Part shown: positions 12,608 to 24,441 of the stretch, one piece after another
Layout: the number at the start of each line of letters is the position of its first letter
Numbering within the stretch: the stretch's first letter is position 1
Assembly (NCBI GenBank): GCA_009192285.1
Contig: CM018603.1
Span: forward strand, 1,211,304-1,275,303
Direction: 5' to 3'
Source: Morchella semilibera
Lineage: Eukaryota > Ascomycota > Pezizomycetes > Pezizales > Morchellaceae
Length of the DNA stretch: 64,000 nucleotides
Notes under the pieces: model-generated
What the model saw: only the letters and a program-made list of their open reading frames with translations
What the model was told of the DNA's origin: nothing
Database searches by the model: none
Translations under genes and position numbers: made by a program

Positions 12608-12615
12608 TATATAAA
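12608..12615 (+). promoter_or_regulatory. TATA box of MNT gene 1
   Basis: A perfect TATATAAA lies 271 bases upstream of the start codon. The same octamer lies upstream of the other two genes of the MNT/HEPN set. The long leader that follows ends in a possible 5'-UTR intron, with CTAAC near 12837 and an ATTACAG acceptor ending at 12852, but its donor is not certain. Confidence 0.5.
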
Positions 12616-12868
12616 CGGAAGGCGCCCTGCCAGTCCAAGAAACGCATCTCCATTGTTGTCAACTCTACCAACTCACCCCTTACATATATACGTACCTGAC
12701 CAAGGCACGTCAGATCTGCCGAGATCTTCGTGACTGCGTATGCATGCAGCATCCCTGCTCCCCACGGTCACATACCTCTAAATATACTCACTTCGAAGCA
12801 AAGGTTGGTTATCCCCATCTCTGTTTATGGCTATACTAACTCTTAATTACAGAAGTAGAACCTGGTGA

Positions 12869-12922
12869 ATGCGATCTAATGATACGCTCCTATTACATCG
12901 GTCGAAGCGAAAATGTAGATGA
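12869..12922 (+). other. Upstream ORF overlapping the MNT 1 start
   Basis: An ATG at 12869 opens a 17-codon frame that ends with TGA at 12920-12922, out of frame with the main start at 12879. The MNT 2 gene has an equivalent overlapping upstream ORF. If both are in the mRNA, they would lower translation of the main frame. The transcript start is not known. Confidence 0.4.
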
Positions 12923-13994
12923 CCTCCGGTCGGCCTCTAGGGCAGCCTTATCACTTCCTGACTTTGAGAACGTTTTGTGGATTGGCGTTTTCGGATCATT
13001 TGCTCGAAACCAGCAAGGAGATAGAAGCGATGTGGACATAATTGTCGTTGAGAGGTCAGACCATGACCTGGGGAGCGGTGAAGAACGGGGGAATTCTGCC
13101 AACAACGAGCCCTGGACACTAGAAGACCTTCTACCGAGGGTTTGGTGCAGGCCTGTACAAATTATTCGAATTGAAAACCAGGAGCTACGTGGGCTAGTCT
13201 CGGTAGATGCCCTCCTAACAGCTCGAACCATCCACGGCAATGATGAGTGTCAAGAGGTATCGAAGCTCCGCCAAGATGCAAAGAGTTACCTTGAGCAAGG
13301 CCGGTCTATCTTTGAAACAGCGGAAACAGAAATTGAGGCCATGAAATCGAGGGTAGAGAGTATCGGAGGTTTCGAAGTAAGTTGAAGTGCCCTTATTGCC
13401 TGGTAGTTTAGTTTTCATGATATTAATTAGTTTCTCTTGTCTTAGCAATTCGCAGGGTCACCAGCCATCCAGCAGTCTCTTCGTGATGATCTCCTTCATA
13501 TTCTCCAGAGTTTCGATATCAAGCCGACATGGCACCCTATGTATGAGGGGTTTTGGTCAGCAGTCATTCAACCGGCGGATGAGCTCAAAAAGATTATCCA
13601 TTCGAGCCAGGAAAGTCCTAACTATTGGGAGGAAGTTTGGGAAATCCTTTCTGGTTCATCTCCCAAGACGCTACAAAGCCTTCTTATGAGATTAAAGAAG
13701 TTCGTATTCCCCATCCTCACCGATATCCAGGAGCGTATGGAGCTCTCTAAAAGATTGGAAAAAATGGGAGAATCGGCGGCGGCGGCGGCGGCGGTGGCGG
13801 CGGTTCCAGCAGTGGCGGCGGTCCCAGCAGTGGCAGAAACTGTAGAGAACGACAACCAAATCTCGGTGGTTGCTCAATCTGAAGGCATTAATGAGACTCA
13901 AAGGGAGTCTAACAAGGCGCCAAAAACCGGCGTCGCAAGGGCACGCGGCTTTAAACGACATTGGAAAAAGTTTAGGGCACGTCTCGGCCTCTGA
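12879..13994 (+). CDS. MNT-type nucleotidyltransferase, copy 1 (348 aa, two exons)
   Basis: Exons 12879-13376 and 13446-13994 flank a 69-nt phase-0 intron (GTAAGT donor, CTTAG acceptor). The domain is the minimal nucleotidyltransferase fold (NTP_transf_2/MNT). The metal- and NTP-binding signature GSx10DxD is intact: G39-S40, then D51 and D53 in SDVDIIV. The usual later third carboxylate appears to be replaced by Gln94 in RPVQII. Exon 2 encodes a helical region with HPMYEGFWSA (about 196-205), then an Ala/Val/Pro tract (277-297) from a GCG-rich microsatellite, and a basic tail. It pairs by paralogy with the gene at 23382, with the intron at the same site. In prokaryotes such proteins are antitoxins that adenylylate HEPN partners; a HEPN gene lies 6.5 kb downstream. 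Whether this protein does so is inference. The chosen ATG matches the paralogue's N-terminus. Confidence 0.8.
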
Positions 13995-23290: not shown

Positions 23291-23335
23291 GGTAATTAAA
23301 TCCACATATATCCAAATTCCAGGTTTCTTCAACAG

Positions 23336-23407
23336 ATGGTATTGGCTAACGGTGCAACATCTTCAAAGGCCGACTCCGAGAATGATCGATATCAGCAGCT
23401 ACTATGA
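23336..23407 (+). other. Upstream ORF overlapping the MNT 2 start
   Basis: An ATG at 23336, right after a CAACAG that could be a splice acceptor, opens 23 codons and ends with TGA at 23405-23407. It is out of frame with, and overlaps, the main ATG at 23382. MNT 1 has the same arrangement. It may reduce initiation at the main start. Confidence 0.4.
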
Positions 23408-24285
23408 TGGGCGAAGTCAGAATATCACCGACTTGAGGAACTCTTCCAAAGAGGCCCTTTCTCTGCCTGATTTTAGCAATGTTGTATGGATAGGTGTCTT
23501 CGGATCCTTCTCGAGAAACCAACAAAATGACCGAAGTGACGTCGATATCGTCGTTGTTGAGCACTCTGGCGATGCGCAGAGCCAGATCACTGAGGACATG
23601 AATAACGACCCTTGGACTATTGAGGACCTGCTCCCTAGATTGTGGTGTAGGCCAGTGGAAATTGTTTCCCTCGAAAGTGGTCTGCGTGAATTAGTTGATA
23701 TAGATTCTTTGCTAACGTCTCGTACCATATATGGCAATGAACAATGCGAAGAGGTTTTAAAGCTTCGCCAGAGTGCATGGGATTGCCTCAATCACGGCCT
23801 AACCATCTTTAGCAATGCGCAGAAGGATTTACAATCTTTAAAATCAAAGACAACAAATGTCAAAGACTTTATTGTATGTATGCACGCATGTTCTCACGAA
23901 GCTCTCTACCTTGACCTCCTTATTACTTCACTTACTTATCTGATTGCAGGAGTTTATGAAGGACCCACCTCTCCAACAGTCCTTTCGGGATGAACTCCTT
24001 CGAATCCTAGGTTCCTTCGACGAATATCCTGCCTCACATCCTATTTATGAGGGATTTTATTCTGCTATCATTTATCCTGCAAATGAGATCAAGGAGATGG
24101 TTACTCCGAGCGCCAGAGAAGATGCGGAATACTGGAGAACGATATGGGATGTTCTCTCATCTTCATCGCTTAAGAGTCTACAAAGCCTTTTAATGCGTTT
24201 GGAGAAGTTTGTATTCCCAACGCTCTACGATATGAAGAAACGCATCACGCTTTCAAAAGAGTTAAAAGAGAAGAACGAGGCCTGA
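23382..24285 (+). CDS. MNT-type nucleotidyltransferase, copy 2 (275 aa, two exons)
   Basis: Exons 23382-23873 and 23950-24285 flank a 76-nt phase-0 intron (GTATGT donor, ATTGCAG acceptor) at the same place as in the gene at 12879. The MNT signature GSx10DxD is intact: G41-S42, D53 and D55 in SDVDIVV. The later third acidic position is Glu93 in RPVEIV, where copy 1 has Gln. The second exon has HPIYEGFYSA and a helical region ending in KEKNEA. Compared with copy 1 the protein is shorter: a TGA at 24283 cuts off a tail whose frame stays open for 51 more codons to TAA at 24439. The upstream in-frame GTG at 23352 is not a likely start; the ATG at 23382 aligns with copy 1. Its partner is probably the HEPN protein encoded 2.4 kb upstream. 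The biochemical role is inferred from the family. Confidence 0.8.
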
Positions 24286-24441
24286 AAGGCAGTAGTTACC
24301 GAGGATGGGCTCACGGCCCCAGCAGCCATTGAAGGAGAAGAAAAACCGACTAGATGTAGAGCTGGGGGAGGTGTAGCGGTAGCTAAAGGACAATCAAGAG
24401 GGTTTGGCGGGGGTTGCGATCGCGTATTTCCAGTCAGATAA
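24286..24441 (+). pseudogene. Open reading frame continuing past the MNT 2 stop
   Basis: Directly after the TGA at 24283-24285 the same frame runs 51 codons without a stop until TAA at 24439-24441. Its composition (Ala/Pro, then KPTR and a Gly/Arg-rich end) loosely resembles the tail of MNT 1, which has KAPKTGVARARGF. The simplest view is that the TGA is a recent truncation and this is the former C-terminus. Readthrough is an alternative. Confidence 0.45.

Follow-up and report, generated by a model that had tools for sequence, protein, structure and literature searches.

The window analyzed here is a 64,000-nucleotide stretch of the Morchella semilibera genome (C1:1211304-1275303 in a 56.76-Mb assembly of 23 contigs; positions below are those of the window unless a contig is named). 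It carries an unusual trio of real genes on the plus strand: two encode MNT-type nucleotidyltransferase domain proteins, here MNT1 and MNT2, and the third, situated between them, encodes a small protein supported as a HepT-like HEPN protein. HEPN–MNT toxin–antidote modules are common in bacteria and archaea. A sequence-only reading of this DNA had placed two MNT genes and one HEPN gene on the same strand, and open reading frame (ORF) and gene models bear this out, with the following exons:

12879..13376, plus strand: MNT1 exon 1, nucleotidyltransferase domain, GSx10DxD at 12993, third catalytic position Gln (RPVQII)
13446..13994, plus strand: MNT1 exon 2, C-terminal helical part, Ala-rich stretch, basic tail, stop
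20471..20581, plus strand: HEPN gene exon 1, 37 codons
20639..20989, plus strand: HEPN gene exon 2, predicted HepT-like HEPN core, R94-x4-H99-x-Y101 at 20807-20830, stop
23382..23873, plus strand: MNT2 exon 1, nucleotidyltransferase domain, GSx10DxD at 23502, third catalytic position Glu (RPVEIV)
23950..24285, plus strand: MNT2 exon 2, C-terminal helical part, stop

The predicted proteins measure 348 (MNT1), 153 (HEPN) and 275 (MNT2) amino acids, and each gene model contains one GT-AG intron (13377-13445, 20582-20638 and 23874-23949, respectively), in agreement with the introns ascribed earlier to all three genes. The 57-bp HEPN intron reads GTTAGT...ACTAAC...TTTAG and keeps the frame, and the spliced frame has a single stop (TAG), at its end; the MNT1 start and splice junction fit its relative P0001. 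A six-frame translation of the window holds GSx10DxD exactly twice, at 12993 and 23502, once in each MNT, and RNAASHEY, a complete Rx4HxY motif with R94, H99 and Y101 all present, is encoded at 20807. Rx4HxY alone is weak evidence, since it matches 12 times in the same translation, and profile tests were therefore needed for the HEPN call. The introns, the Morchella relatives of the MNTs and the megabase-sized host contig speak for a nuclear fungal origin and against contamination, as had been proposed; the TATA boxes cited to the same end carry little weight, since 27% of sampled positions have a TATAWA in the 300 bp upstream and 15% have one in the nearest 150 bp. The locus had also been drawn as far as 24441, whereas the MNT2 model ends at 24285. 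This model, which leaves out 24286-24441, stops before the basic C-terminal tail present in MNT1 and in relatives P0001–P0004, the tail being either lost or placed on another exon.

By sequence, MNT1 and MNT2 are paralogous MNT-type nucleotidyltransferase domain proteins, so that this part of the sequence-only reading stands. Pfam NTP_transf_2 scores above its cut-off in both (25.8 and 23.4 bits versus 21) and Polbeta slightly below its own, while an NCBIfam scan of MNT1 returned MntA as the best match (E 3e-5), but at 23.8 bits against a cut-off of 60. A profile of four MNT family members, compared with solved structures, matched 1wot, MntA (5yep), kanamycin nucleotidyltransferase and 2rff, all weakly (E 0.1–0.83), the sequence match to kanamycin nucleotidyltransferase being confined to the surroundings of the catalytic motif. 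The description of both copies as intact did not survive alignment. In the column that we take, from the alignment and the known fold, to be the third catalytic position, Asp is found in 7/7 aligned prokaryotic MNTs (from 12 loci) and in P0008 and P0009, Glu in MNT2 and P0003–P0007, and Gln in MNT1, P0001 and P0002. The Glu of the MNT2 type may still function as the third catalytic carboxylate.

Among approximately 8,000 candidates scored, those sharing the most words, the closest MNT relatives belong to Morchella snyderi, M. importuna and M. sextelata. MNT1 is 72% identical to P0001 and 68% to P0002, versus 56% to P0003 and 55% to P0004; MNT2 is 61% identical to each of P0003 and P0004, versus 57% to P0001 and 50% to P0002. 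Because each copy is closer to the relatives of its own type, these comparisons date the MNT duplication to before the split from the other morels, and the copies have diverged in the active site in a stable manner. Linkage of the pair probably extends to M. snyderi, because P0001 and P0004, both from this species, are listed with the same longest contig of 260,221 bp. P0005–P0007, which come from metagenome sources, and the distant P0008 (35% identity) end shortly past a Glu-Val that corresponds to the start of the morel intron (Glu, then GT); these translated ends suggest an old intron position and a eukaryotic origin for P0008. An Ala/Val/Pro-rich stretch in GCG-type codons is expanded in MNT1 (13776-13838); in P0001 and P0002 it is shorter. 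Among the best candidates scored in a search of the M. semilibera genome itself, two MNT genes and a single HEPN gene turned up, all three at this locus. A further PF01909 match, on C15, was rejected as an MNT and looks like a Trf4/5-type poly(A) polymerase; in the viral contigs searched, no HEPN or MNT relative was found.

To characterize the HEPN candidate, two sets of HepT sequences were employed: eight ORFs adjoining prokaryotic MNT loci, where an Rx4HxY ORF lies next door at 7 of 12 loci, and 40 ORFs around PF01934 matches in the same 12 genomes, 36 of them with Rx4HxY and not all independent, some being one gene reached twice. Profiles were ranked over 1,625 sequences, comprising the spliced HEPN protein, 844 window ORFs and 780 bacterial ORFs outside the profile. 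With the 40-sequence profile HEPN scored 21.4 bits (E 1.7e-5), and exon 2 alone reached 20.6 bits, so the match is independent of the splice model; the runner-up at 14.1 bits, L051, is a PF01934 match in its own right, and the highest score among the other decoys was 6.8 bits. When such broad profiles, which mix the classic HepT and YutE-like branches, were rebuilt in 22 builds (six rebuilding ways, two of them probably identical, and eight random sets of 28, with two aligners), HEPN ranked first in 22/22 at 11.9–21.4 bits, the best decoys scoring 5.4–11.0 after L051 and HEPN’s own exon had been set aside beforehand; the margins ranged from about 1 to 15 bits (smallest 0.9). With the full HepT sets, shuffles that keep RNAASHEY in place reached the HEPN score in 0 or 1 of 2000 cases. 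In an hhalign comparison with 20 HepTs, the alignment runs co-linearly over 87 columns and takes in the motif (E 1.3e-4 for a single pair, with no shuffle calibration; probability 54%); one with 7 HepTs gave a score reached by 14/300 motif-kept shuffles. A split profile of 8 YutE-like sequences placed HEPN first after L051, at 12.2 bits. In a fold comparison using a low-confidence HEPN model, HepT-type structures (HepT/YutE) lead the rows, with Las1 entries also among them. A PDB sequence search returned nothing beyond a sulfurtransferase (E 0.7). Together, the broad profiles, with the folds as weak support, argue for a HepT-like HEPN protein encoded at 20471-20989, an assignment first made from the motif, which would have been insufficient alone.

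A Pfam scan of this protein at E up to 10 gave just two rows, each for a HEPN family: HEPN_MAE_28990 at E 0.029 and DUF4145 at E 0.094; across the genome, however, the former scores the cytochrome P450-like gene L021 above HEPN and the latter scores L022 (C4:565470), which by eye looks like a NACHT-type NLR, above it as well. Since L021 and L022, whose P450 and NLR looks are our own impression, score higher, these rows are at noise level in the genome scan. HepT-like/DUF86 profile searching thus matches the HEPN core: our home-made broad HepT profiles rank HEPN first, although Pfam’s own model did not report it.

The MNT proteins carry, as modeled on relative P0004, a C-terminal helical bundle of their own. 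The model has a mean predicted local distance difference test score (pLDDT) of 57; its catalytic part is poor, with 10-residue blocks at 27–57, and the bundle (blocks 131–250) lies at 72–90, with one block at 56. The identification of this bundle as a HepT by sequence is unsupported: it scored 3.0–5.1 bits with the broad profiles, and 1–8 of 500 shuffles reached its score. Column shuffles reached it in 4/300, and hhalign gave E 0.022. By fold a HepT identity is possible, but the match is tied with designed four-helix bundles. An Rx4H motif (RDDLLH) is present in the bundle of MNT1, P0001 and P0002 and absent from MNT2, P0003 and P0004.

Such an architecture brings in the main rival explanation, which we regard as a real possibility though well short of an even chance: the MNTs may be self-contained two-domain nucleotidyltransferases acting on another protein or a small molecule, with a catalytically inactive HEPN-like bundle fused on as in AadA, LinB and kanamycin nucleotidyltransferase, while the HEPN gene would be an independent RNase or RNA-binding gene lying between them by chance. 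The morel MNTs do resemble AadA, AAD(9), LinB and kanamycin nucleotidyltransferase in having a nucleotidyltransferase domain followed by a helical bundle, but the whole-model fold match to these enzymes is very weak, and neither the low bit scores of the bundle nor its tie with designed proteins favors a fused HEPN. A chance neighborhood is moreover unlikely: across 56.8 Mb, a single HEPN of this kind and a single MNT locus were found, with 2.4 kb between them, and this closeness of the only locus found of each kind favors pairing.

We prefer, tentatively and at somewhat less than even likelihood, to read the locus as a eukaryotic relative of the prokaryotic HEPN–MNT (HepT–MntA) module that has diverged and carries introns. 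In prokaryotes the linkage is strong, 26/30 HepT loci holding a GSx10DxD ORF, in a set that is biased because the genomes were chosen by their MNT loci and some loci overlap. Like HepT–MntA, a type VII toxin–antitoxin system of bacteria and archaea, the morel locus has a GSx10DxD MNT near a small Rx4HxY HEPN on the same strand, with one MNT copy upstream; unlike it, the morel genes have introns and lie kilobases apart, and the MNT is duplicated, extended by a helical domain and altered from Asp to Glu or Gln at the third catalytic position.

Several findings weigh against this preferred reading, and they also temper the HEPN–MNT system proposed by the sequence-only reading, which is partly supported by the adjoining of the only loci found of each kind. 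The genes are spaced 2.4 and 6.5 kb apart, and the MNTs, at 275 and 348 amino acids, do not match the minimal MntA size of about 100–140 amino acids with no extra domain. In the P0004 model the C-terminal bundle resembles the HEPN fold, so the partner’s place may already be taken. With Gln in place of the third catalytic acid, MNT1 is unlikely to be an intact enzyme, and its type has probably lost catalysis. A single-sequence search with HEPN over 5.8 billion proteins found no relative (33 candidates, none scored); the same collection does hold morel proteins with MNTs, and the absence has weight because an annotated HEPN at the identity of the MNT orthologs (61–72%) should have surfaced. The identity of HEPN is itself less secure with narrower tools: a profile of 8 HepTs gave it 5.2 bits, a score reached by 14/1000 motif-kept shuffles and, in a further run, by 34/2000 motif-kept and 5/2000 full shuffles, which is weak, and a split profile of 32 classic HepTs placed it at 9.8 bits, second to a bacterial decoy at 10.8 with its own exon aside. 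Neither of the two Pfam HEPN/HepT models, PF01934/DUF86 included, calls the window HEPN, and a chance PF18737 match elsewhere in the genome outscores it. The NCBIfam scan of HEPN gave no HEPN match, its sole row being a sigma factor (E 0.13), and the PADLOC scan of HEPN gave no match.

Missing HEPN relatives in a collection with MNT-bearing morel proteins also lend some weight to a further explanation, that the HEPN gene is decaying or unexpressed, the relic of a formerly linked module whose MNTs have another role. This we consider improbable in view of the open frame, the complete motif and the clean intron. HEPN exon 2 also scores as more coding-like than 43/43 intergenic stop-free stretches of at least 90 codons, though the model is crude: MNT2, which does have relatives, falls among the intergenic controls and is not set apart by this score.

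If the locus is indeed a relative of the HEPN–MNT module, a functional toxin–antidote pair is plausible. HEPN would be an RNA-cutting enzyme silenced through adenylylation of Tyr101, the MNT2 type, with its acidic third residue, would be the likely transferase, and the MNT1 type, with Gln, could be a weakened or non-catalytic paralog for binding or sensing; release of HEPN would then lead to a defense or self-recognition action. In its full form, as a working pair in a fungal nucleus in which a two-domain MNT adenylylates the tyrosine of a HepT-like RNase and a catalytically weakened MNT paralog acts as regulator, and which serves as a defense, self-recognition or selfish element, the proposal is in our judgment unlikely. 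A functional eukaryotic pair would show that a nucleus can keep an adenylylation-controlled RNase, and the HEPN and MNT proteins are small enough for tests in ordinary laboratory hosts.

The control could also run in the opposite direction. OAS and RNase L represent the same pair of activities, a nucleotidyltransferase plus a HEPN nuclease, and by this analogy the morel nucleotidyltransferase would sense a trigger and make a nucleotide signal that switches the HEPN nuclease on instead of silencing it. MNT1 has weak profile matches to HalB (E 0.041) and to an oligonucleotide cyclase (E 0.015) that point the same way, but they span only 23–24 residues around the catalytic motif, PADLOC gives stronger matches to other candidate families (PDC-S09), and a HEPN of 153 amino acids leaves little space for a ligand-binding domain; we hold such a relay to be highly improbable.

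The window HEPN belongs to the same superfamily as the eukaryotic HEPN RNases Las1, Ire1/RNase L (KEN) and Swt1, but unlike these it is a stand-alone protein, and its best fold rows are HepT/YutE, not Las1. Among the papers listed by a literature search, none has a title on a fungal HEPN–MNT pair. Parts of a survey of the HEPN superfamily name Las1, Swt1 and other HEPN proteins from eukaryotes and fungi, and no such pair is named for these organisms there (PMC3710099).

Further downstream, the window contains the following genes:

33572-34669: HeLo-domain gene (PF14479, 77.8 bits), about 9 kb downstream of MNT2
36819-38153: ALG10, downstream of the HeLo-domain gene
41418-44375, minus strand: protein kinase followed by at least 11 ankyrin repeats of very regular repeat sequence, in two ORFs

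HeLo proteins, a prion/cell-death type family, act in fungal cell death, and this neighborhood would suit a self-recognition role of the locus, a link that is no more than suggestive. Between HEPN and MNT2, at 22547-22715, lies an element of about 163 bp resembling a miniature inverted-repeat transposable element (MITE), with 20-nucleotide terminal inverted repeats (95% complementary). Among the 40 candidates scored, of 343, it has 39 further near-full copies, 91–98% identical, and the family is recently active. On the contig pairs C12/C13 and C21/C22, copies occupy parallel positions and mostly score the same, as if two haplotypes had been assembled.
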